Shown here: one piece after another, positions 28,690-41,153 of the stretch
Numbering within the stretch: the first letter of the stretch is position 1
Layout: each line of letters begins with the position of its first letter
Assembly: GCF_021654165.1 (NCBI RefSeq)
Contig: NZ_JAKFZN010000001.1
Location: 310,001-374,000, forward strand
Origin: Nereida sp. MMG025
GTDB taxonomy: Bacteria > Pseudomonadota > Alphaproteobacteria > Rhodobacterales > Rhodobacteraceae
Length of the DNA: 64,000 bases
Reading direction: 5' to 3'
Position numbers and translations under genes: made by a program
The notes under the pieces: generated by a model
What the model saw: only the letters and a program-made list of their open reading frames with translations
What the model was told of the DNA's origin: nothing
The model's database searches: none

Positions 28690-30111
28690 TCAAAAGTCTC
28701 GGTTTTCATATGCGGAAAGGGCTTTCTTGCGCCCTTCTTCGGCTGTCACGATGGGCGATGGATAGGCATCATCGGCATGGATCGGCCACGCCTGCGGGAT
28801 GGCGTCGAAATAGGCCAGTGCCGTATCGGCGGGGCGGCTGCGCCCTTCGGCGATCCACGCGCCCACATAATCGCGGTTTTTGTCGAATTTATCGAGCTGT
28901 GTGACAGGGTTGAACACGCGGAAATACGGCGTGGCATCTGGACCAGAGCCTGCGGACCATTGCCAGCCCATCGCGTTGCTGGCGGGGTCCCAATCAATCA
29001 AACAGTCCTCAAACCACGCAAGACCGATTTTCCAATGACACTGCAGGTGTTTGGTCAAATAGCTTGCCACGATCATGCGACCGCGGTTGTGCATGGTGCC
29101 TGTCACATACATCTCGCGCATGGCCGCATCCACGAATTGAATACCTGTGCGTCCTTGTTTCCACGCTTTGACCTCGGCCAGACGTTCATCGGTTTTCCAT
29201 GGAAAGGCGTCCCAATCCTCTTTCCAGTTACGGTCCAGAATACGCGGCGTGTGATGGGCCAGATGATAGGCAAACTCGCGCCAGACCAATTCTTTGAGAA
29301 AGGTTTCTGCCCCTGCTTTTCCTTCCTCGCGCGCGCGCATGCCTGCATGCCAGCAACTTCTTGGGCTGATTTCGCCGACGGCCAGATTTTCCGAAAGGCG
29401 GCTGGTGCCATCTTTCCACGGAAGATCACGGTTGGTGTCATAGCCCTGAACTTTGTGCGCGATGAACGCACCAAGGCGACCCTTGGCCTTCTCCTCGCCG
29501 ATACAGGCGTGCTGCGCCACAACCGATGCGCCCCGCTGCATAGCGTCTCCCATGCCCCAGTCTTGCAAACTGTCCGAGGCGGGCCAATTATCAGGGGCGG
29601 GTATGTCGCCAGGTGCTGCAAGCGGCGCAGGCACATCGCGGGTTTTCACCATGTTCCACATCGGGGTGAACACTTTGTAAAAACCGCCTGTCTTGGTCTC
29701 GACGGTCCAGGGCTCGAACAACAAATGCCCTTTGAAACTTTGCGCATCGACACCCTGATCTTTCAGGGTGGACTTCACATCGGTGTCACGCGCCTGTTGA
29801 TCTGGCACATAAGCCCGCGACCAATAAACGGCACCCGCACCGGTGTCGCGCACCAACTGCGCCAAGACATCACTGGCTTTCCCGCGCCGCAAGATCAGGC
29901 GACTGCCTTTCGCCTTCAGCGTTTCGGCAAATTGCGCAACGGCCTGTTCCAATCGCCATTTTGGCGCAGCCCCGTGGGTTTCGGCGACCTCGTCCAGAAT
30001 AAACACCGGGATCACAGGACCACCGCGTTCGACTGCGGCACAAAGCGCGGGATGGTCGCCCAGTCGAAAGTCGCGGCGAAGCCAAAGAATGGTCGGAGAG
30101 GTATGTGCCAT
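28690..30111 (-). CDS. Cryptochrome/DNA photolyase (class I CPD photolyase type)
   Basis: 473 residues. The N-terminal antenna domain starts with TILWLRRDFRLGDHPALCAA; the C-terminal FAD domain has LPWKDGTSRLSENLAVGEIS, LVWREFAYHL, WKQGRTGIQFVDAAMREM and NAMGWQWSAGSGPDATPYFR. It repairs UV cyclobutane dimers with blue light. All motifs expected of a bacterial class I enzyme are present, so a repair role is more likely than signalling. First gene of the stress block; the aminotransferase gene ends 39 bp upstream. Confidence 0.92.
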   Translation of the reverse strand: MAHTSPTILWLRRDFRLGDHPALCAAVERGGPVIPVFILDEVAETHGAAPKWRLEQAVAQFAETLKAKGSRLILRRGKASDVLAQLVRDTGAGAVYWSRAYVPDQQARDTDVKSTLKDQGVDAQSFKGHLLFEPWTVETKTGGFYKVFTPMWNMVKTRDVPAPLAAPGDIPAPDNWPASDSLQDWGMGDAMQRGASVVAQHACIGEEKAKGRLGAFIAHKVQGYDTNRDLPWKDGTSRLSENLAVGEISPRSCWHAGMRAREEGKAGAETFLKELVWREFAYHLAHHTPRILDRNWKEDWDAFPWKTDERLAEVKAWKQGRTGIQFVDAAMREMYVTGTMHNRGRMIVASYLTKHLQCHWKIGLAWFEDCLIDWDPASNAMGWQWSAGSGPDATPYFRVFNPVTQLDKFDKNRDYVGAWIAEGRSRPADTALAYFDAIPQAWPIHADDAYPSPIVTAEEGRKKALSAYENRDF

Positions 30112-30150
30112 AGTCAGCCCTTACTTGCGCAGGGTCTTGGACGCCCTGCC

Positions 30151-31374
30151 TTATAGCGTTTGATCTAGGGCACGGATCAGCAGGTCAACCTCGGCGGGGG
30201 TGGTGTAATGCACAAAAGAAAGACGCAGCACACCTTTGTCAGGGTCAACGCCCATCGCGTCCAGTGATCGGCGAGCGTAAAAGTCACCGCCCCCCGCCAT
30301 GATACCGTGATGCGACAGCGCCTCGGCCATCTCTTCGCCAGGGGTCTTGAGGGCCAGCGCAACCGTGGGGGCACGCCCCTTATGGGTTTGAGGCCCGATG
30401 ATGCGCAGATCAGATCTTGTGCGCAGATAATCCATCAGCGGTTCCAGTAATGCCGCCTCTGCATTTTGCATCATATCGGCCACAACGGCGGCGCGCCCTG
30501 CCCCGTCGCGCCCTTCTTTTCGGTGATGCGCATAAACCGCATCGATGTAGTCTGCCATGCCAGCGCAGGCCGCAACTTGCGCGTGATCGGGACCTGCGGG
30601 GGTAAAGCGTTTGTGCAACGTATCATTGTTGAAGTAATGCCCCTGCCCGGGCAAAGCCATGCCAAGGGGGCGGCGGATCAACATAATCCCTTGATGGGGG
30701 CCATAGGTTTTATAAGCGCTGAAAAGGTAAATATCACAGCCCAACTTGCCAACATTCGGGAAACCATGTGGGGCATAACTCACCCCGTCGACGCAGGTAA
30801 AAATACTGGCGTCACGCGCAATTTTGCAGATCGCGGCCACATCATTGATCTGCCCGACCACGTTTGAGCAATGGGGAAAGCAAAGCAATTTCACATTGTC
30901 GTCGATCAGATCATGCAGATCGTCGATATCGAGCGCCCCCGTCTCGGGGTCGATCGTCCATTCACGAATTTCGATGCCGCGATCTTCCAACCGACGCCAC
31001 ACGCCTGCATTCGCTTCGTGGTCCTGTTCGGTGACAATGATGGCCTGACCAGGGCTAAGCCATTCCCCGAACGCCTTGGCCAGCACATATGTGTTTTGCG
31101 AGGTCGAGGGGCCGAATGACACTTCATCGGAGGCCACGCCAAACATGCGGGCAAGTCGGGTGCGGGCATCGTCCATTTCGTTGCCCGCAAGGAAAGACGC
31201 TTTGTAAGGCGCATAGGGCTGCACTTTTCGTTCACGGTAAAACCGCGACAGGCGCCACGCCACGTGCCGACAGGTAAAAGACCCGCCTGCGTTTTCAAAA
31301 AACGCAAGGTTGCGCAGGCTTGGTTCTGCAAAAGCAGGAAACTGGGCGCGGATAAAATCGGTGTCCAATTGCAT
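30151..31374 (-). CDS. Class V aminotransferase / cysteine desulfurase-like PLP enzyme
   Basis: 407 residues. PLP-fold landmarks are FFENAGGSFTCRHV, GPSTSQNTYVLA, EQDHEANAGVWRR, the Asp in CVDGVSYAPHG and the PLP lysine in FSAYKTYGPHQG. The group is often annotated cysteine desulfurase-like, but the mobile-loop Cys expected of IscS/SufS is not evident. The substrate is therefore unknown; isopenicillin-N-epimerase-like and kynureninase-like members exist. It is the most upstream gene of the minus-strand block, with a leader next to the BCCT terminator. Confidence 0.85.
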   Translation of the reverse strand: MQLDTDFIRAQFPAFAEPSLRNLAFFENAGGSFTCRHVAWRLSRFYRERKVQPYAPYKASFLAGNEMDDARTRLARMFGVASDEVSFGPSTSQNTYVLAKAFGEWLSPGQAIIVTEQDHEANAGVWRRLEDRGIEIREWTIDPETGALDIDDLHDLIDDNVKLLCFPHCSNVVGQINDVAAICKIARDASIFTCVDGVSYAPHGFPNVGKLGCDIYLFSAYKTYGPHQGIMLIRRPLGMALPGQGHYFNNDTLHKRFTPAGPDHAQVAACAGMADYIDAVYAHHRKEGRDGAGRAAVVADMMQNAEAALLEPLMDYLRTRSDLRIIGPQTHKGRAPTVALALKTPGEEMAEALSHHGIMAGGGDFYARRSLDAMGVDPDKGVLRLSFVHYTTPAEVDLLIRALDQTL

Positions 31375-31515: not shown

Positions 31516-33174
31516 TTATTCCGCAGGCACCGTTGTCGCAACACCCATGGCTTCGCGCCGCCCATCGTTCCAGATCGCCTTGATCATCGAAAGGCACATC
31601 AACACCATCACAAAGCTGAATGGCAAGGCACCGATCACCATCGCCGTTTGAATGGCCGATGTGCCGCCAGAAATCAGCAAGCCTGCAACCACCAGACCAA
31701 GGGCAGCGCCCCAGAACAGAATGTGCGGGCGTGCTTTGGGGCCTTCATCGCCTGCCGCATTGATGGTGTTCACGATCAACACAGCAGAGTCAGCAGAGGT
31801 CACAAGGAACGTCATCAACAATACAACGATCAGCATCGCCATCCCCCATGCCAGAGCTTCCGCAATCGGGGCCAGCATGAATTCGGTCATGGCAAAGATC
31901 TTGTCACCGTTGGCCGCGTCAAAAATGACGCCGTTCGCCTCCCCGTTCAGCTCCAGGTCGATGGCCGTGCCGCCCGCCCATGCAAACCAGACAAAACACA
32001 TCAGCGACGGGACGATCATCGCCCCCAAGACGAACTCACGAATGGTGCGTCCACGGCTGATCCGCGCAAGGAACAGGCCGACGAAGGGCGCAAAGGCGAT
32101 CCACCATGCCCAGTAGAACACGGGCCACCAGCCCTGCCACTGCGCCAGCAGGAACGCTTCGGACCCGTCAACGCCATCTGATTTGAATACGTTGAAGCTC
32201 ATCTCGGGGAGCGCCACCAGATAGTCCCACAGGCCGACAAACATCGCCTGTGCGCCAAACCACGTGGCCCCGAAAATGATGAAGAAACCCAACAGGATGA
32301 TGGACAAAACCATATTGATATTCGACAGCCATTTGATGCCTTTACCAACACCTGACAGCGCTGAAAGGGTCGATGCCCCCATAATGGCCAGCAAAGCGAC
32401 GACGATGCCGAATGTGGTGGCCGCACCGCTTTCTTCGACCAAACCGCCAATGCCGATACGTGTCAGGCCTGCCACGAATTGTTCAACGCCAAAGCCCAAG
32501 GTTTGGGCGACACCAAGAATAGTCGCAACAACTGCAACAATATCAATAAGATGGCCCAGGTTGCCCGAAAGCGCCTTGCCGAAAAGCGGTGTGAGCGATG
32601 ACCGGATCGTAAGCGGCAAGCCGCGGCGATAACTGAAAAACGCAAGCGAAAGCCCCGCCACAGCGTAACAGGCCCAAGCCCCCAACCCCCAATGGAGGAA
32701 CGACCATTTGTAGGCCATACGCACGTTGTCGGCTTCGCCGCCTGTCGTAAGGCCCTGAATGGTTTCAGGGTTCGACCCGAAATGCGCCACGGGTTCGGCC
32801 ACCGCCCACGTCAGCATGCCCACACCGATCCCCGCGCCAAACATCATGGAAAACCACGAGAAATTGCTGAACTCCGGCTTTTCCCCATCCAACCCGAGGT
32901 TCATGCGCCCCGCTGTCGGCCAGATCGCAAGGCCCAGACAGAAAATGATAAAGAAAGCGACCGCCCAGATATACCAGGCGGCAAAGTTGGCAAGGATCAC
33001 ACTATTCCAATTGCCAAGGATCGTGCCTGCTTGGGTGGGCCAGACGATGCACCAGACGACAAGCAAACTGATGATGATTTTGCTGACAACCGTTACGTCT
33101 ATGCTGAAGCCGCGATAAAACCCCTTTTCGGCGGTCCTGATTGGCAGTTCGGTTAAAGGCTCTTTGATGGCCAT
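31516..33174 (-). CDS. BCCT family betaine/carnitine/choline/DMSP transporter
   Basis: 552 residues from ATG 33174, with twelve hydrophobic segments. Family signatures are the glycine-rich TM region GAGIGVGMLTWAVAEPVAHF and the highly conserved WWIAFAPFVGLFLARISRGR, a substrate-site helix rich in Trp. BCCT carriers take up quaternary amines or DMSP with Na+ or H+. It is next to the acuI-dmdA operon but has its own terminator and is separated from acuI by another. DMSP or glycine betaine uptake is therefore a contextual guess. Confidence 0.9.
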   Translation of the reverse strand: MAIKEPLTELPIRTAEKGFYRGFSIDVTVVSKIIISLLVVWCIVWPTQAGTILGNWNSVILANFAAWYIWAVAFFIIFCLGLAIWPTAGRMNLGLDGEKPEFSNFSWFSMMFGAGIGVGMLTWAVAEPVAHFGSNPETIQGLTTGGEADNVRMAYKWSFLHWGLGAWACYAVAGLSLAFFSYRRGLPLTIRSSLTPLFGKALSGNLGHLIDIVAVVATILGVAQTLGFGVEQFVAGLTRIGIGGLVEESGAATTFGIVVALLAIMGASTLSALSGVGKGIKWLSNINMVLSIILLGFFIIFGATWFGAQAMFVGLWDYLVALPEMSFNVFKSDGVDGSEAFLLAQWQGWWPVFYWAWWIAFAPFVGLFLARISRGRTIREFVLGAMIVPSLMCFVWFAWAGGTAIDLELNGEANGVIFDAANGDKIFAMTEFMLAPIAEALAWGMAMLIVVLLMTFLVTSADSAVLIVNTINAAGDEGPKARPHILFWGAALGLVVAGLLISGGTSAIQTAMVIGALPFSFVMVLMCLSMIKAIWNDGRREAMGVATTVPAE

Positions 33175-33287
33175 GTGGTTCCCTCTCTGTTTATTATGAG
33201 GAAAGCCTATCGCACATGGTTGCATTCATGAAATGAAATACGACGAAAAACCGTGCAAAATCGCTTATTTTTTGCGCTTTTAACCAT

Positions 33288-33325
33288 AAAAATGGCCCCG
33301 AACTGAACCATTCGGAGCCATTTTT
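33288..33325 (-). terminator. Bidirectional-looking terminator downstream of acuI
   Basis: AAAAATGGCCCCGAA (33288-33302) pairs with TTCGG-A-GCCATTTTT (33311-33325), with A and T runs built into the stem. It lies 48 bp past the acuI stop and upstream of the BCCT gene, ending the dmdA operon. Confidence 0.85.
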
Positions 33326-33372: not shown

Positions 33373-34356
33373 CTAGCCGTTGACGTCGACGACAACGCGG
33401 CCCTTGACCTGTCCTTTCAGGATGTCTTTGCCCAAAGCGGGCAGATCAGACAGCACCGCAGGTTGGATCATCGCCTCCAGCTTATCCATCGGCAGATCCT
33501 TGGCTATACGTTGCCAAGCGCGCAGGCGGTTGTCATACGGCTGCATCACGCTGTCGATGCCAAGCAGGTTCACACCGCGCAGCAAAAACGGAATGACGGT
33601 CGCAGGCAACGCCGCGCCACCCGCAAGACCCACGGCAGACACGCTGGCGCCGTATTTCATTTGTCCAAGCAAGCGGGCCAGCATTTCGCCGCCCACCGCA
33701 TCAACGCAGCCGCCCCATGTTTCGGCCTCAAGCGGGCGTTTGGTGGTCTCGTTCAGATCTTCGCGCGCCACAATCTGTGTCGCGCCAAGGCTCTTGAGGT
33801 AGTCCGCCGTATCAGGCCGCCCTGTCACCGCCGCAACGTCATGACCAAGGTTTCCAAGGATCGCTGTGGCAACCGAACCGACGCCGCCCGCAGCACCTGT
33901 GACCAACACAGGACCGTCTTTGATGCCGTGATCTTCCAGCGCCATCACAGCCAGCATCGCGGTGAAACCTGCGGTGCCAACGGCCATGGCCTGACGTGTG
34001 TCCAAACCGTCTGGCAACGGCACCAGCCAGTCGGCTTTGACGCGCGCTTTTTGCGAATAGCCACCCCAATGCGCCTCGCCCACGCGCCAGCCCGTCAGGA
34101 CCACCTTGTCGCCCGCCTTGTAGCGCGTATCATCCGAGCTTTCGACGGTGCCCGCAAAATCAATGCCAGGCACATGCGGATAGTTGCGCACCAATCCGCC
34201 GCCAGGTCCGATGCACAGACCATCTTTGTAGTTCACAGTTGAGTATTCGACCGCCACCGTCACGTCGCCATCGGGCAAACGGTCTTCGCCAATCTGCTGC
34301 ACCGATGCGCTTGTTTTTCCGTCGCCGTCTTTCTCTACCACCAATGCGTTGAACAT
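33373..34356 (-). CDS. acuI: Acryloyl-CoA reductase (NADPH), MDR family AcuI/YhdH
   Basis: 327 residues of the zinc-free MDR quinone-oxidoreductase group. VNYKDGLCIGPGG, HVPGIDFAGTVESS, the Rossmann motif GAAGGVGSVA and LLGIDSV are characteristic of AcuI/YhdH. AcuI reduces acryloyl-CoA to propionyl-CoA, detoxifying the acrylate formed during DMSP catabolism. It is 13 bp after dmdA on the same strand; the dmdA-acuI pair is known in roseobacters, which strengthens the name. Confidence 0.9.
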   Translation of the reverse strand: MFNALVVEKDGDGKTSASVQQIGEDRLPDGDVTVAVEYSTVNYKDGLCIGPGGGLVRNYPHVPGIDFAGTVESSDDTRYKAGDKVVLTGWRVGEAHWGGYSQKARVKADWLVPLPDGLDTRQAMAVGTAGFTAMLAVMALEDHGIKDGPVLVTGAAGGVGSVATAILGNLGHDVAAVTGRPDTADYLKSLGATQIVAREDLNETTKRPLEAETWGGCVDAVGGEMLARLLGQMKYGASVSAVGLAGGAALPATVIPFLLRGVNLLGIDSVMQPYDNRLRAWQRIAKDLPMDKLEAMIQPAVLSDLPALGKDILKGQVKGRVVVDVNG

Positions 34357-34369
34357 CGTGCTCTCCCTG

Positions 34370-35470
34370 CTAAATCCAGAATTTTTCCAAAACGGTTGCG
34401 TCGCGCATGCCGTCTGGCGTGTCGACTTGCACCTTGGTGCCTTCGTCCCAATGGGTCATGCGGACCATGCCAATGGCCACGCCTGTATCAAAGTCGGGTG
34501 AATTGGCCGCCGATGTGACCTGCCCCACCTTTTTGCCGTTGACCACGATGGGCCAAATACGGTCACACGGCGGCAGGCCCCCATCAATCGAAATCGGACG
34601 TATCTGCTGCACAGGGCCTTCTTTGGCCACACGCAGCAACGCATCACGCCCCACACAGCCAATCGCAGTTTGTGTGCTGCAGAATTTGCCCAAACCGGCC
34701 TCATGCGGCGTGTTCCAGCGGGTCATGTCATTGCCGTAGGACAGCAAACCACCCTCAATCCGTTCGATCAGATTTGGACAACCTGCCCGCACCCCAAGGT
34801 CTTTGCCTGCGTCAAACAACGCATTCCAAAGCGGCATACCATTTTCCGTGCCCTCGACATAAATCTCGAACCCGCCCTGTTTGGAATAGCCAGACCGCGC
34901 GACGGCAAAGGTGTTGCCTTCAAAATCGAACATGCCGAAGCGGAAGAACCGCACATCGCGGACCCCTTCGCCAAAAACGCGTGCCATCAGATCATCAGCC
35001 AGCGGCCCCTGCACGGCCAGCGGCGAGACATCAGGCTCATCGACCAGCACATCAAGACGGTAGCCATATGCGATGCCTTTGACCCAGAGCAACAAGTCGC
35101 TATCGGCGATCGATACCCAATACCGGTCCTCGGCCAGTTTTACGCACACAGGGTCGTTCAGCATCCCACCTGTTTCATCCACCATCGGCACGTAATAGCA
35201 CTGCCCCGGCAGCATGCCGCGCAGATCGCGCGGGGTTAGCATCTGCATCAAACGGCCCGCATCCGGACCACGCAATTCTACCTGCCGCTCAACGGAAACA
35301 TCCCAGACCTGCACCGCCTCCTTCAGGTGGCGGTAGTCGTATTCGACACTTTCGAACACGGTGGGCAACAGCATGCGGTTGTAAACCGTGTAAGCTTTGA
35401 CGCCCTGCGCTTCGACACCATCGGAAAACGGGGTGCGACGCACACGCCGCGAGGGGGAAATCATGGCCAT
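34370..35470 (-). CDS. dmdA: Dimethylsulfoniopropionate demethylase DmdA
   Basis: 366 residues, aminomethyltransferase (GcvT) fold. It opens with the roseobacter DmdA pattern PSRRVRRTPFSDGVEAQGVK. The body has VQVWDVSVERQVELRGPDA, QCYYVPMVDETGGMLNDPV, SKQGGFEIYVEG and CPNLIERIEGGLLSYGNDMT, which fits DmdA better than GcvT, sarcosine or glycine-cleavage relatives. It transfers a DMSP methyl group to tetrahydrofolate, giving methylmercaptopropionate. The start ATG is directly adjacent to the stop of the DinB-type gene; MISPSRR two codons in is an alternative start. dmdB-D are not in the window. Confidence 0.88.
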   Translation of the reverse strand: MAMISPSRRVRRTPFSDGVEAQGVKAYTVYNRMLLPTVFESVEYDYRHLKEAVQVWDVSVERQVELRGPDAGRLMQMLTPRDLRGMLPGQCYYVPMVDETGGMLNDPVCVKLAEDRYWVSIADSDLLLWVKGIAYGYRLDVLVDEPDVSPLAVQGPLADDLMARVFGEGVRDVRFFRFGMFDFEGNTFAVARSGYSKQGGFEIYVEGTENGMPLWNALFDAGKDLGVRAGCPNLIERIEGGLLSYGNDMTRWNTPHEAGLGKFCSTQTAIGCVGRDALLRVAKEGPVQQIRPISIDGGLPPCDRIWPIVVNGKKVGQVTSAANSPDFDTGVAIGMVRMTHWDEGTKVQVDTPDGMRDATVLEKFWI

Positions 35471-35977
35471 TTAGCTGTCCTCTGGCATAAAGACGAGATC
35501 GGTGTCAGGCATGGTCACACCGCTGGCGGTAAGCATGGCATGCAGTTGACCGCGGTGATGCGTCTGGTGGTTGAACATATGTATCGCACAGGCCTGAATG
35601 GGCTGGCTGACATGACGATTTTGGGCGCCTGAAAACCATGTCATTTGCCCCGTCAGATCAATGGATTTCAGCGATTTGGCCCATTTGATAATGCGCCCGT
35701 CGGTGCGAAACCGCGCGACATCCCAAGTGCCTGCATCTTCAAACAACGAGACACTTTCGGAAATGCCACCCGTTGGCGCCTCGCCACCGTCAAAGCGCGA
35801 CATCCAAAGCATATCGCCCCATAACAGATGGTTCGCCGTGGCCATGATCGAGCCAAAAAAGCTCCCGTGATCGCGGGTCAGATCATCTTCATCCATCGCC
35901 AGAAGTGCTGCACGCAAGCCGTTGTTTTGCCATTGATTATACCGCGCCATATGGCGGCAATAATCAGCGGTGATCAT
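35471..35977 (-). CDS. DinB/YfiT-like four-helix protein
   Basis: 168 residues from ATG 35977, which overlaps the DUF1326 stop by 4 bp. The metal-ligand pattern of DinB proteins is present: a His in ATANHLLWGD and the later HMFNHQTHHRGQLHAML. DinB-fold enzymes include thiol S-transferases and nickel- or zinc-binding proteins of unknown substrate. Its place between DUF1326 and dmdA, with no gap to dmdA, suggests a linked role, perhaps thiol or cofactor handling; this is inference. Confidence 0.82.
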   Translation of the reverse strand: MITADYCRHMARYNQWQNNGLRAALLAMDEDDLTRDHGSFFGSIMATANHLLWGDMLWMSRFDGGEAPTGGISESVSLFEDAGTWDVARFRTDGRIIKWAKSLKSIDLTGQMTWFSGAQNRHVSQPIQACAIHMFNHQTHHRGQLHAMLTASGVTMPDTDLVFMPEDS

Positions 35978-36684
35978 GGCTTGGGGCCTTTCCAGTCGAT
36001 CGGGCAAATCTCAGCGGACATGCCACCAAAGTCCCACACGCGGCCATAGTCGCGCACTTTGGACTTCACGCCGCGCGCTGCAATAATATCGGGTCCCATC
36101 CAGTATTTCGAGTTGGTGATCATAACGGGGTGGTCCGGGTTGCCACCGTCAATCATCTCGATTTCACCGGCAATCTTGCGCCCAATATAGAGCCCGCGTT
36201 TCTTGCCATCGCGGACAATCTCGACCTTTTCGCGCTCGGCCCCGATGATTTCGGACACAAGGAAAGTAAACAGCCCCGTCGTGCCGCCCGCTGCCCCGCT
36301 AAATATCTTGAGCAGTCCGTTATAGGCTTTTTGCGTGCTGCGTTCATCCACATAGGCCGCGACACGCCAGTTGCCTTCGCCCATGCGGCCTGGGATATCG
36401 ACCAGCAAACCGACGTTCAGGCCAGACAGGTCCTCGCCTTCAAAATGGCCTTCATCAATCGCAATCGCCATCCAGGCATGGCAATGCCCTTCTGTGGGCG
36501 GGTGCGCCCCAAGGCTGACCACACAAGGGCAAAAGACCGTGCAAGAGCAATTCAAAAACAACTCGCCCTTGATGGCCCAATCGGTGGGGTCCATTTTACG
36601 GCGCAACGGGTTGTTATCCATTCGCTGGTCGATGCGTTGCGAGATCGGCAGTTTATCCGCAGGTTGTCGTGTTTTCGCAGTCAT
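35974..36684 (-). CDS. DUF1326 domain protein
   Basis: 236 residues from ATG 36684. The hallmark is a Cys cluster at LFLNCSCTVFCPCV followed by GHCHAWMAI, which suggests metal binding. The rest is the conserved beta-rich domain (DLSGLNVGLLVDIPG, ALIVGEIE-like IAGEIEMID). Function unknown. DUF1326 genes commonly accompany DUF2182 genes, and here the DUF2182 gene is 13 bp upstream. The gene overlaps the DinB-type gene by 4 bp. Confidence 0.88.
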   Translation of the reverse strand: MTAKTRQPADKLPISQRIDQRMDNNPLRRKMDPTDWAIKGELFLNCSCTVFCPCVVSLGAHPPTEGHCHAWMAIAIDEGHFEGEDLSGLNVGLLVDIPGRMGEGNWRVAAYVDERSTQKAYNGLLKIFSGAAGGTTGLFTFLVSEIIGAEREKVEIVRDGKKRGLYIGRKIAGEIEMIDGGNPDHPVMITNSKYWMGPDIIAARGVKSKVRDYGRVWDFGGMSAEICPIDWKGPKP

Positions 36685-36697
36685 GGTCTGACCTTTC

Positions 36698-37456
36698 CTA
36701 AAGAATTCCGTAGAGGCACAGGCCCGCGCCCGCTGCAATGAGACCAAAGCCCAAAGGCCGTGTGATGACATGGCCCACGGCTGGCAGTTTTTCCAACACC
36801 ATCAACAACGTCGCAAGCCCCATCCAAAGAAGGCTCATCACGCCGCCCACAAACCCAAGCGCCATGAACCCCCAACAACAGCCCACACAAAACGCGCCAA
36901 GCCCAAGCCCCATGCGGGCGCCGCCTAAAAAGCCGGTGCGCCAGTGGCCTAGAAAATACATCATCGGCGCGTGGCACACGCCGTGGCACACCTCTTTGGT
37001 GCGGCTGAATTGGAACGCGCCCACCACGATCAGCAACACGCCCGCAAACCAAGGTGACGTGGCAATGCCAAGCGCGTCAATCATGCCCGCAGATGTCAGC
37101 GCCAACTGCGCCACAGAAATCAACGCGGCAAAGCCAACCCAGACCACAAAATAGCCAAGTAAAACCCCCGTCCATCCCACGCGGGTGCCATTGGCGCTGG
37201 TCATCAAATCCTCGTAAGCGCGCAATGTCGGCACAAGTGTCGGCAACATCATCGCCGCCATCATGATGGCCCACATCGGGAAAAGGGCTCCAAAGGTTTC
37301 CATGGGCATCATATTTGCGCCAACAGGCCGGCCGATCATATCCACGCCCGACATTTGCGCCATCATCCACATCACCCACCACGCCAACAGGATAACCACG
37401 AAAAACGTGATCCACAGCAGCGACCGTGTCGGCAATTTCGAGATAAGTTGAGCCAA
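36698..37456 (-). CDS. DUF2182 predicted metal-binding integral membrane protein
   Basis: 252 residues, about six membrane helices. Conserved features are MPMWAIMMAAMML-like (FPMWAIMMAAMMLPTLVP), CHGVCHAPMMYF and FCVGCCWGFMALGFVGGVM, with Cys/His pairs inside or beside helices, which supports metal binding. First gene of the DUF2182-DUF1326-DinB-dmdA-acuI run. Its start faces the GntR-type regulator across a 91-bp gap carrying operator-like palindromes. Confidence 0.87.
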   Translation of the reverse strand: MAQLISKLPTRSLLWITFFVVILLAWWVMWMMAQMSGVDMIGRPVGANMMPMETFGALFPMWAIMMAAMMLPTLVPTLRAYEDLMTSANGTRVGWTGVLLGYFVVWVGFAALISVAQLALTSAGMIDALGIATSPWFAGVLLIVVGAFQFSRTKEVCHGVCHAPMMYFLGHWRTGFLGGARMGLGLGAFCVGCCWGFMALGFVGGVMSLLWMGLATLLMVLEKLPAVGHVITRPLGFGLIAAGAGLCLYGIL

Positions 37457-37493
37457 CGTGCCCTCCCAAGCGACTCATGCGTTGCAAATTAAA

Positions 37494-37535
37494 TGTCAGA
37501 CTTTTAGAAACGGGGCAAACAATAAATGTCTGACA
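37494..37535. promoter_or_regulatory. Paired TGTC-N-GACA palindromes, probable GntR/FCD operator
   Basis: TGTCTGACA (37527-37535) is a perfect palindrome around one base. TGTCAGACT (37494-37502) is the same site with one mismatch. Centres are 33 bp apart, about three helical turns, in the gap between the divergent DUF2182 operon and the GntR gene. This form matches operators of FCD-type GntR regulators. Confidence 0.65.
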
Positions 37536-37547
37536 ATAGCGAGCCCG

Positions 37548-38288
37548 ATGAAAACGCAACTCGACCCCTCTGCCGATTTATCCATCCAGATTGCCACTGC
37601 AATCCGCGATGCCATCATCTCGGGCGCCCTGCCCGTTGACGAACGGCTGCCCTCTGAATCCGAGCTGTGCGAGACCTTCGAGGTCGGCAGATCGACGGTG
37701 CGCGAAGCGCTCAAACGTCTTGCTGCGCAGTCTCTCATCCGCACGCAGCGCGGCGCAACGGGTGGCGCTTTTGTCAACCGCCTCAGCTATGCCGACGCGC
37801 ACGCCCAACAGATCACGACCTCTACGCTTTTGCTGTCGATGAATGCGGTGAATTTCGAAACCGCCTGTGAGGCGCGCTTTGCACTGGAACGCGCCTGCGC
37901 GCCCCTTTCGGCCAAGCGCCGAACCCCTGACCAACTGGCCACCATGCGGGCCGAGATCCACCGTCAGGGGCAAACAGGTCTGTCTGATGAGGCGTGGTGC
38001 GCCAGTGATGTGGCCTTCCACCGTGCTTTGGTGGATGGTGCGGCCAACCCTGTGTTGTCCTATCAGCTTGCCGGCGCGGTTGAAGCGATGCAGCCCTTGA
38101 TGAACATGATCACCTTTACTGCCCGCAGCCGCGACCATATCATCGGTTTGCACACCGATATCGCTGATGCGCTCGATGCCCGTGATGCCGCGACGGTCGA
38201 TCAAAAACTCGCTGATCTGGCCCATTACACAACGCAGTTGGCCCTATCGGTGTTCGCCGCACGCCAGGCAACGCAAAAAACCTCGTAG
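37548..38288 (+). CDS. GntR/FCD-family transcriptional regulator
   Basis: 246 residues from ATG 37548; an earlier in-frame ATG at 37458 would cross the operator sites. The winged helix lies at about residues 12-75 with LPSESELCETFEVGRSTVRE and the wing RTQRGATGGAFV. The FCD effector domain follows, with ligand-site residues in DVAFHRALVDGAANPVL and late His residues. It diverges from the dmdA operon and likely controls it and itself. The ligand could be DMSP, acrylate or a CoA/carboxylate derivative; not determinable here. Confidence 0.87.
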   Translation: MKTQLDPSADLSIQIATAIRDAIISGALPVDERLPSESELCETFEVGRSTVREALKRLAAQSLIRTQRGATGGAFVNRLSYADAHAQQITTSTLLLSMNAVNFETACEARFALERACAPLSAKRRTPDQLATMRAEIHRQGQTGLSDEAWCASDVAFHRALVDGAANPVLSYQLAGAVEAMQPLMNMITFTARSRDHIIGLHTDIADALDARDAATVDQKLADLAHYTTQLALSVFAARQATQKTS

Positions 38289-39513: not shown

Positions 39514-40671
39514 CTAATCGATGATGTCAAAGAAATCCGGAATTACCTGAGATATCAGCGACAGATCCCCATCTGAATCAAACCCCGCGGTAAATTCTGC
39601 CAGCACTGCCTGATCATTCAAAAGCTCGCCGATCGAATAGTATAACTTGGTTTCCGAAAGGGCACCTGTTTCGTCAAATAGCTGCAACTGGAACAGCCAG
39701 TCATCAACACCAGGGTCTATCGAAGGCGCGTCGCCCGGCGTCCCCACCACGATCGGCTCCCCCAGAAAATCGCCTGGTGACAGGTTGTCAGACTCAAACC
39801 GCAACCGGTGGGTCATTGATCCATCTTCTGCAAACAACACTGCCGTCGCATCATTATCGTCCATTGTGCGTAGGCGGGCCTGCATGTTTCCGTCTTCGTC
39901 GAACACCCGCAATGTCGTTGCCCATACAAAAGCATCGGACGTCATGCCAGGATCCTCGTCGATACCAACGAGCACCTCAGTCGCTTCAAAACGATCGCCG
40001 CCTACGGGTAAGTCTTCAAGAAAAGTATATTTCAACCCGTTTTCGTCTGTCAGACCAGTCTCGATCCGTAGCCCCGAATCCTTGGTAACACGCGAGTAGA
40101 CCACCTCACCATTTACCTTCGTTTGTTCAAACGAAGAAAAGTTGTATCTGTCGTCTTCACCGTCAAAAATCGAGACCTCTTCCCACACATCGCTGCCGAT
40201 TTGATCGAATTCTCTTATGATCCGTGCACCATCGTCGAAAAAGACCGATCGTTGTGTCAGGGTCCCCTCGTTATCATAACTCCATGTCTTCGTAGACCAC
40301 TCGAAAACATCATCCTCATCGAACCTATTGCGATATGAAGACCCTTCAAAGTTTTGCGATACCTGACGCACCCCGTTGTCGAACTCGACCTCTTTGCCGG
40401 CTATTTCGCCGGTTGCGTCATAGGTGAAGGTGATCTTTTCGTACGGCTTCAGGTTGGCCTCTGCATCGCGCAGCACACGCGTGGTCAAAACGCCAGTTTC
40501 GTCATATCGAAACTCGCGTTGCGTACCGTCATCACGCGTAATTGTGCGCTGTGTTACGACATCTGTATCAGGATCGAACACTTCTACGATCGATGACCAA
40601 TTATAGATGTCATCGACATCATTAATGACGCGGATCGTCGGAAGTGTGAAAAAACTAGAGCGTATTGACAT
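39514..40671 (-). CDS. Acidic protein with YD-like repeats, unknown function
   Basis: 385 residues, rich in Asp/Glu, no signal peptide or membrane segment. At least seven units fit a loose pattern hydrophobic-x-Y/F-D-x-x-G-x-hydrophobic-x-x-R: FRYDETGVLTTRV, FTYDATGEIAGKE, WSYDNEGTLTQRS, RVFDEDGNMQARL, VLFAEDGSMTHRL, QLFDETGALSETK and AGFDSDGDLSLIS. This recalls the YD repeats of RHS/tenascin-like proteins, but without an RHS core or toxin tip. It is a single gene bounded by a terminator on one side and a 131-bp AT-richer gap on the other. Its codon use looks less GC-rich than the neighbours. Confidence 0.7.
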   Translation of the reverse strand: MSIRSSFFTLPTIRVINDVDDIYNWSSIVEVFDPDTDVVTQRTITRDDGTQREFRYDETGVLTTRVLRDAEANLKPYEKITFTYDATGEIAGKEVEFDNGVRQVSQNFEGSSYRNRFDEDDVFEWSTKTWSYDNEGTLTQRSVFFDDGARIIREFDQIGSDVWEEVSIFDGEDDRYNFSSFEQTKVNGEVVYSRVTKDSGLRIETGLTDENGLKYTFLEDLPVGGDRFEATEVLVGIDEDPGMTSDAFVWATTLRVFDEDGNMQARLRTMDDNDATAVLFAEDGSMTHRLRFESDNLSPGDFLGEPIVVGTPGDAPSIDPGVDDWLFQLQLFDETGALSETKLYYSIGELLNDQAVLAEFTAGFDSDGDLSLISQVIPDFFDIID

Positions 40672-40802: not shown

Positions 40803-41153
40803 ATGCTCGATCTGATAAACCCTGCCCTAGCCCTTTTGACCATCGGTTTGGGACTGTTTGGCTTTCTGGCACCGCGCTTTACAGCCAGTGCGCTTGATCT
40901 TGAGGCCGTGAAAAGCACCATGGGGTTGTCCGAAATGCGCGCCAGCGCCGGCGGATTGTTTGTCGCAATCGGGGTGGTGTGTCTGATCTCGGCCGAGCCC
41001 ATGACATATGTGATGCTTGGCGTGGCCTACACAGGGGCCGCAGCAGGGCGATTTATCTCAATCGTAATAGACAAACCTCCCATGCCCAAAGCTCTGGTGT
41101 TCTTCCTGTTTGAAGCCCTGCCAGCCGCATGGCTAATCACGTGGAACATCTAA
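40803..41153 (+). CDS. Small four-helix membrane protein (DUF4345-like)
   Basis: 116 residues, four hydrophobic segments (LINPALALLTIGLGLFGFLA; AGGLFVAIGVVCLISA; MLGVAYTGAAAGRFISI; ALVFFLFEALPAAWLI). Between TM1 and TM2 is a GLSEMRASAGG stretch similar to the R..YGG motif of DUF4345-type proteins. It is a distant look-alike of the 121-residue protein at 21322-21687. It lies just upstream of the tmRNA gene. Confidence 0.6.
   Translation: MLDLINPALALLTIGLGLFGFLAPRFTASALDLEAVKSTMGLSEMRASAGGLFVAIGVVCLISAEPMTYVMLGVAYTGAAAGRFISIVIDKPPMPKALVFFLFEALPAAWLITWNI

Follow-up and report, generated by a model that had tools for sequence, protein, structure and literature searches.

A PpoB2-DUF1326 gene pair precedes dmdA and acuI

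The DNA analyzed here, called the window, is a 64,000-nucleotide (nt) stretch of the Nereida sp. MMG025 genome. It contains an operon of five minus-strand genes in which the genes for dimethylsulfoniopropionate (DMSP) demethylase (DmdA) and an acryloyl-CoA reductase (AcuI) are preceded by genes for PpoB2, a DUF1326 protein, and a DinB family protein. We found that the PpoB2-DUF1326 pair accompanies most acuI-linked dmdA genes of the family Rhodobacteraceae, and we tentatively interpret it as a Cu(I)-handling module.

The first gene (36698..37456, minus strand) encodes PpoB2, the former DUF2182 (PF09948, COG5486), with 252 amino acids (aa) from a TTG start and a Pfam score of 197 bits (cut-off 28.7). 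It is followed on the same strand by the genes for the DUF1326 protein (PF07040; 35974..36684; 236 aa; 165 bits, cut-off 25) and the DinB family protein (PF05163; 35471..35977; 168 aa; 76.5 bits, cut-off 23), whose frames share a 4-bp ATGA overlap. DmdA (34370..35470, minus strand; 366 aa) scored 670 bits with the NCBIfam equivalog NF009133 (cut-off 410), and the AcuI/YhdH family acryloyl-CoA reductase (33373..34356, minus strand; 327 aa) scored 447 bits with TIGR02823 (cut-off 297). The successive gaps are 13, −4, 0, and 13 bp, and from this spacing we infer that the five genes are co-transcribed. Located 3′ of AcuI is a hairpin with a U-run, a likely intrinsic terminator of the operon (33290..33313, minus strand). 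The pattern scan for terminators is weak by itself (7 terminator-like sites in the region versus 5.6 expected); the 106-nt stretch with the hairpin had a folding z of −4.3, and 0 of 200 shuffles folded as well. Upstream and divergent, 91 bp from the PpoB2 start, is the gene of a GntR/FCD-family regulator (37548..38288, plus strand; 246 aa from the ATG at 37548). This start was chosen by sequence reading, and the resulting length is the median of its cluster; the Pfam scores, obtained on a longer frame from 37458, were 64.5 bits for GntR and 65.9 bits for FCD.

The gene order, gaps, and terminator had been given exactly right in a first-pass annotation of this DNA, as the coordinates and the hairpin fold confirm. 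Two of its other statements had to be corrected. It called DUF2182 unexplained, and Pfam now lists PF09948 under the name PpoB2, copper chaperone. It also described the DinB protein as His-rich. In this respect the protein is ordinary: 44 of the 47 DinB proteins of the fetched loci match the C-terminal His motif pattern of the family, a motif that has a metal role.

The gene order is conserved in the family

We sampled 198 genomes from 197 genera of the window's family. DUF1326 was found in 106 of them, PpoB2 in 110, and DmdA over its cut-off in 84; all 106 genomes having DUF1326 also had PpoB2. Sixty-four of the 92 DmdA genes lie within 5 kb of a DUF1326 gene, and in all 64 cases DUF1326 is on the same strand and upstream, with PpoB2 further upstream. 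Neighborhoods were compared for the DUF1326 genes and, among the 28 DmdA genes that have no DUF1326 nearby, for 20. With the other 8, AcuI is either missing or located on a different contig; therefore, the pair is present at 57 of the 62 acuI-linked DmdA genes. Conservation of the order around dmdA in relatives, proposed in the first-pass annotation as a check, thus held inside the family. Judged from these genomes, the gene order of the DMSP operon is no local accident. The window AcuI scored just under the cut-off of the narrower AcuI equivalog NF051456 (421 versus 440 bits), a cut-off exceeded in just 20 of the 198 family genomes.

Named loci from GTDB were also compared, using the best 80 of 518, which are biased to close relatives. 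Their titles give Rhodobacteraceae genera (Yoonia, Loktanella, Octadecabacter, Roseovarius, Sulfitobacter, Tateyamaria, and others), and the remaining ones read "Rhodobacteraceae bacterium" or "Alphaproteobacteria bacterium". Among the 61 of these 80 that have full flanks, PpoB2 and AcuI were each present in 61, GntR in 59, DmdA in 55, and DinB in 46.

The pair stays while DmdA varies

Loci were classed as T1 if their DUF1326 protein scored 230 bits or more with a profile that we made from the loci themselves; this cut and the neighbor thresholds were our choice, and some neighborhoods were cut by contig ends. In all 95 T1 loci, PpoB2 is beside DUF1326 on the same strand. It is upstream by open frames in 93; in L102 and L152, where the DUF1326 frame extends upstream, the profile matches still put PpoB2 upstream. 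AcuI lies within 4.5 kb in 79 T1 loci (77 on the same strand), DmdA is present in 64, both together in 57, and a GntR regulator in 60 (58 divergent). When the count was confined to the 80 T1 loci with 4.5 kb of downstream and 1.8 kb of upstream sequence, AcuI was found in 70 and DmdA in 58, and 18 of the 22 loci without DmdA had AcuI. An acyl-CoA ligase homologue is nearby on the same strand in 9 of the 95, and 7 of these 9 are without AcuI. DinB is optional: 45 of the 95 T1 loci have it, and in L192 it accompanies dmdA-acuI in the absence of the pair. The remaining 28 DUF1326 loci of the family, classed as T2, include 24 with PpoB2 and none with DMSP genes. At the genome level, DmdA was present in 71 of 95 genomes with the T1 clade versus 13 of 103 without it (Fisher p = 1e-19, uncorrected for phylogeny).

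A tree was calculated by a quick method from 134 of 143 DUF1326 proteins (length limits were applied), with a program warning of long branches. On this tree, T1 is one supported group (Shimodaira-Hasegawa-like approximate likelihood-ratio test [SH-aLRT] value 99), which includes two sequences from outside the family. DmdA presence changes at least 19 times, and 7 of these changes are forced by well-supported branches. The simplest reading is that the pair was retained through several losses of DmdA, and on this distribution DmdA is better seen as a variable passenger of a PpoB2-DUF1326-AcuI locus. Two loci of non-family alphaproteobacteria, L202 (genome G205) and L205 (G248), have a T1-type PpoB2-DUF1326 in the same order and no DMSP genes.

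In a sample of the phylum, DUF1326 was found in 41 of 378 genomes, 14 of those being family members. Nineteen of the 20 outside-family DUF1326 loci have PpoB2, with none seen in L206, and no DmdA or AcuI was found in the 20 loci at a convincing score (there were two AcuI matches, of 31 and 26 bits). A scan of the outside-family neighbors (70 of 81 proteins) gave no recurrent partner in the 25 families listed. Since the pair occurs there without DMSP genes, it is more general than its DMSP link; within the family, as these loci indicate, one clade of the pair became tied to the DMSP operon.

This distribution bears on an alternative in which the pair gives general copper/thiol stress protection in a strongly induced stress-type operon, with nothing specific to DMSP. 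AcuI would then act against acryloyl-CoA, DinB might be a detoxifying enzyme linked to thiols, and copper mobilized by reactive sulfur or acrylate would be handled by the pair. That all 20 outside-family loci are without DmdA or AcuI while 19 keep PpoB2 agrees with this idea, as does the persistence of the pair without DmdA through the changes on the quick tree. The stable linkage and the operator shared over many genera (see below) argue instead for a benefit tied to the regulon, and we consider general stress protection a possible but unlikely explanation.

Invariant residues of DUF1326 and PpoB2

The DUF1326 alignment comprised 71 sequences: the window protein, roughly one in two of the T1 loci, and those T2 loci that fitted the length limits. 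The window protein has a CxCxxxCPC motif; the four Cys of this motif and a fifth Cys (C46, C48, C52, C54, and C68) are invariant, and five of the nine invariant columns are Cys. The pattern CxCxxxCxC occurs in the DUF1326 proteins of 95 of 95 T1, 27 of 28 T2, and 20 of 20 outside-family loci; the T2 proteins are 19 to 31% identical to the window protein.

The predicted structure of the DUF1326 protein (predicted local distance difference test [pLDDT] score 90.6) resembles an acetoacetate decarboxylase fold. Ten entries of the acetoacetate decarboxylase family were retrieved at VIA Z 10.4 to 11.1, the next row being at 8.1. Foldseek E values went down to 1.9e-5, with low template modeling (TM) scores (0.37 for the best row). 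The sequences showed no such similarity: profile-profile comparison with PF06314 by hhalign gave probabilities of 0.2% and 0.4%, and the Pfam scan gave no PF06314 match at E ≤ 0.001. Enzymes of the acetoacetate decarboxylase family use an invariant lysine in catalysis. This residue, K105 of PF06314, is invariant in 17 sequences of that family; by conservation within its own alignment, DUF1326 has no Lys that is invariant or nearly invariant across the 71 sequences. Searches of solved structures by sequence gave nothing credible for DUF1326 (best E 0.53) and nothing at E ≤ 0.01 for DinB. The DUF1326 model resembles the acetoacetate decarboxylase fold, and we claim neither kinship nor an enzyme role.

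DUF1326 could nevertheless be an enzyme, with a decarboxylase-like barrel, a metal-Cys site, and as substrate a small thioether, thiol, or CoA compound produced by the pathway, the enzyme being anchored or fed by PpoB2. Besides the predicted fold, K39 and K207, which are nearly invariant inside T1 (21 sequences), leave room for a lysine-based site in this clade. The absence of profile-profile similarity, the low TM score, and the dominance of Cys over Lys among the invariant columns of the full alignment speak against it and make an enzyme role highly improbable.

For PpoB2, 62 sequences chosen in the same manner, the window protein included, were aligned. M61, M65, M69, M70, C157, C161, C190, C193, C194, and M198 are invariant, and these ten Met and Cys residues are potential Cu(I) ligands. 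The AlphaFold model (pLDDT 94.2) is mainly helical. A fold search gave no match in the PDB with E ≤ 0.001, and a search of solved structures by sequence gave nothing credible (best E 0.015).

PMC2855505 describes PpoB2 of Marinomonas mediterranea as taking part in the delivery of copper to one tyrosinase but not to a second copper oxidase; this membrane protein (PpoB1-PpoB2 operon) is encoded together with the enzyme that it serves. On the basis of this copper transfer, we regard PpoB2 and DUF1326 of the T1 loci as a pair that handles Cu(I), and copper handling can fairly be inferred from the analogy and the conserved residues. Metal handling by the pair, as suggested in the first-pass annotation, fits both the invariant Cys and Met residues and the PpoB2 literature. 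In contrast to the Marinomonas operon, PpoB2 of the window is paired with DUF1326, none of the enzymes in the operon is a known copper enzyme, and a tyrosinase was not found in the genome.

A candidate operator shared by T1 loci with GntR

Two sites of the TGTCWGACA type lie between GntR and PpoB2 (37491-37538). Candidate operator 1 (37524..37538) reads AATGTCTGACAATA on the plus and ATTGTCAGACATTT on the minus strand. Candidate operator 2 (37491..37505; AAAGTCTGACATTT on the minus strand) is spaced 33 bp from operator 1 and lies some 35 bp upstream of the PpoB2 start. The core TGTCNGAC/GTCNGACA was found before PpoB2 in 46 of the 60 T1 loci with GntR versus 1 of the 35 without it. Paired GTCNGAC cores 10 to 40 bp apart occur in 31 of these 60 loci (with 15-bp spacing in 21 of the 31) versus 0 of the 35; the background frequency of GTCNGAC is 0.095 per 340 bp. 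Five of the nine loci with GntR and without DmdA have the site. It was found in none of the 16 regions before DmdA genes without the pair, among which L190 has a paired variant, TGTCNGGCA. The shared candidate operator and the gene order are well supported by these comparisons.

In the genome of the window, a longer pattern with one mismatch allowed gave 8 forward and 8 reverse matches versus 4 and 4 for a reversed control. The sole other place matching on both strands is upstream of an acyl-CoA ligase gene. Taking the best protein match per genome, in 30 of 38 searched genomes, we found the site within 300 bp before the ligase in 7 of the 30 versus about 0.5 expected. The ligase was considered as DmdB; it scored 274 bits with the 3-(methylthio)propionyl-CoA ligase equivalog (cut-off 822) and therefore is not called DmdB. 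It exceeds the cut-off of the acyl-CoA synthetase subfamily PRK08162 (709 versus 677 bits). The candidate GntR regulon is thus the operon plus a CoA ligase; in the literature examined, a regulator of the pathway is not named, and a term search of the text of PMC3338564 found neither "GntR" nor "DUF". In the portion of that paper covered, dmdA-acuI of Ruegeria pomeroyi is induced about 10- to 14-fold by DMSP and by acrylate, and the GntR regulator may mediate such an induction.

Search for a copper client

A tyrosinase was considered as the client of the pair in this genome and ruled out, as was the methanethiol oxidase MtoX: neither PF00264 nor PF05694 gave a match. According to the parts of PMC5739008 and PMC10936201 consulted, methanethiol oxidase is Cu dependent, and mtoX often adjoins the gene of another Cu chaperone, SCO1 (PMC5739008). 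The mtoX-SCO1-mauG clusters resemble the DMSP operon in that a copper chaperone gene is beside the gene of a methylated-sulfur enzyme; unlike in these clusters, the chaperone here is of a different family, and mtoX was not found in this genome. SCO1 (PF02630) was present in 15 of 15 genomes searched and is therefore uninformative.

One explanation would be that the pair metallates MtoX, the copper enzyme that removes methanethiol from the demethylation pathway. Its copper dependence and its frequent neighborhood with SCO1 fit, and MtoX is commoner in genomes with the T1 pair (51 of 95 versus 16 of 103). A PpoB2-family gene is within 3 kb of mtoX in G043, G136, and G160; these are just 3 close pairs among 67 MtoX genomes. 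Among genomes with DmdA, MtoX is similarly common with the pair (43 of 71) and without it (6 of 13), so the link may run through DmdA, and the same counts leave the pair unsupported as a replacement of MtoX. With MtoX also missing from the matches in the window's genome and its genus mate, we regard metallation of MtoX as quite improbable. The cuproenzyme client may differ between species.

Some other arrangements were seen around mtoX. In G136 (C5:47682-50220), mtoX and a divergent PpoB2 paralogue are on the same strand and separated by 667 bp, and DUF1326 has no match in the vicinity of this paralogue; this is a possible PpoB2-MtoX pairing. In G066 (C1:189548-192088, within L188), a genome without the pair, DmdA is followed 72 bp on by MtoX on the same strand. 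Both G036 (C40:235341-243640) and G032 (C71:96110-102255) have, apart from the DmdA operon, a group of three genes located within some 8 kb of one another: mtoX, a P0001-family ligase gene, and a DmdA-like gene that scores under the DmdA cut-off.

Genes flanking the operon

A BCCT transporter gene (31516..33180, minus strand; Pfam match) lies beyond the terminator and is therefore outside the operon; 26 of the 95 T1 loci have a homologue on the same strand no more than 6 kb away. Also past the terminator (28690-31374) are genes for a class V aminotransferase and a photolyase. On the other side, a 385-aa open frame (39514-40671) had no NCBIfam match at E ≤ 1e-10, and its cluster has no other member from the loci compared. 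A 116-aa protein (40803-41150) has weak likeness to the AGROH133_08824 "phage infection protein" family (65 bits, cut-off 120). Among 92 of 156 neighboring proteins of T1 loci without DmdA, the recurrent families were class V aminotransferase (11), BCCT (9), chromate transporter (8), and fumarase-type lyase (6); none of these four is a copper enzyme.

Homologues of non-operon genes are also kept within 6 kb on the same strand of T1 loci (class V aminotransferase in 47 of 95, photolyase in 39 of 95). This, together with the near universality of AcuI in the family, is what would be expected if the genes were neighbors by one ancestral event followed by slow decay, with no functional link. Such accidental retention seems very improbable to us, as PpoB2 is beside DUF1326 in every T1 locus, DmdA comes and goes in an otherwise kept locus, and the operator before PpoB2 accompanies GntR.

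Discussion

The gene order, its conservation, the invariant Cys and Met residues, and the shared candidate operator are read directly from the sequences. The explanation that we favor, with less than even confidence, is a GntR-controlled operon for DMSP and acrylate catabolism, the first two genes of which form a Cu(I)-handling module. GntR would repress via the TGTCWGACA sites until metabolites of DMSP or acrylate accumulate. DmdA would then demethylate DMSP, and AcuI would clear acryloyl-CoA. The DUF1326 protein, a soluble barrel with a five-Cys site, would be a cytosolic Cu(I) carrier that swaps Cu(I) with PpoB2, a Met- and Cys-rich membrane protein. Methanethiol and acryloyl-CoA are able to disturb thiol-copper chemistry. 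The pair would be co-induced with the enzymes because the pathway makes copper-binding methanethiol and thiol-attacking acryloyl-CoA, and it may secure the copper supply of cuproenzymes, or prevent copper from doing damage, under high flux. As a long shot, DUF1326-PpoB2 might be a new membrane-linked Cu(I) system that traps, transfers, or oxidizes copper-bound methanethiol/acrylate adducts, helping to decide DMSP sulfur routing in roseobacters.

Several observations weigh against a Cu(I)-handling module tied to DMSP catabolism. DmdA is absent nearby in 31 of the 95 T1 loci, of which 22 have AcuI, and 59 of the 123 family DUF1326 genes are not near DmdA. Conversely, five loci (L119, L120, L190, L192, and L194) have DmdA and AcuI without the pair. 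With 31 of 95 loci lacking DmdA and 5 of 62 acuI-linked DmdA genes lacking the pair, neither needs the other. The AcuI linkage to the pair is possibly inertia, because AcuI is present in 179 of the 198 genomes. The core site was not found in 14 of the 60 GntR loci; among the best 80 of the 518 named loci, it is before PpoB2 in 51 and missing in 23 of the 74 with PpoB2 and GntR, and 23 of the 30 ligase genes are without it. As to copper, the only described PpoB2 role that we found in the literature has a tyrosinase client, and PF00264 had no match in this genome and was found in 2 of 27 genomes searched. MtoX had no match in this genome or in its genus mate G081, and a distance of 20 kb or less between it and DUF1326 was seen in a single genome. 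The T2 neighbors (110 of 163 proteins scanned) showed no recurrent partner and pointed to no copper enzyme, the 25 commonest families each reaching at most 4 of 110.

The proposal of the first-pass annotation that the pair belongs with the DMSP genes therefore stands in part. The conserved order and the shared candidate operator agree with it; a tie to DmdA as such does not follow, given the T1 loci without nearby DmdA, the DUF1326 genes away from DmdA, and the 0 of 20 outside-family loci with DmdA or AcuI. The finding itself is real and conserved across the genomes compared, and the exact role of the pair in DMSP metabolism is not settled.

Linkage of dmdA and acuI was described in 2012 (PMC3338564). 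In the portion of that source covered, acuI directly follows dmdA in 24 of 26 dmdA-bearing roseobacters, including R. pomeroyi DSS-3, with induction by DMSP and acrylate, which resembles the operon described here. A 2.4-kb R. pomeroyi fragment contained the promoter and both genes, implying that dmdA is promoter proximal there; here, PpoB2, DUF1326, and DinB come first. The acuR-acuI-dddL operon of Rhodobacter sphaeroides is likewise a DMSP operon with acuI, one of three genes; it differs in having the lyase DddL instead of DmdA and, as its genes are listed in PMC3017554, no PpoB2 or DUF1326. We found no mention of DUF1326, DUF2182, PF07040, or PF09948 in the open-licence PMC papers searched, one of which contains COG5486, and the linkage of the pair to the DMSP operon is undescribed in that literature.

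DMSP demethylation by roseobacters helps set how much marine sulfur escapes as dimethyl sulfide (DMS). Two further genes are upstream at 57 of the 62 acuI-linked dmdA genes, mostly behind the same candidate operator. If the pair does not handle copper, two unstudied components of a well-studied operon have still been named. If it does, metal supply would be a testable control on DMSP use. The conserved link points to a possible role of metal in the bacterial processing of a major ocean sulfur compound.

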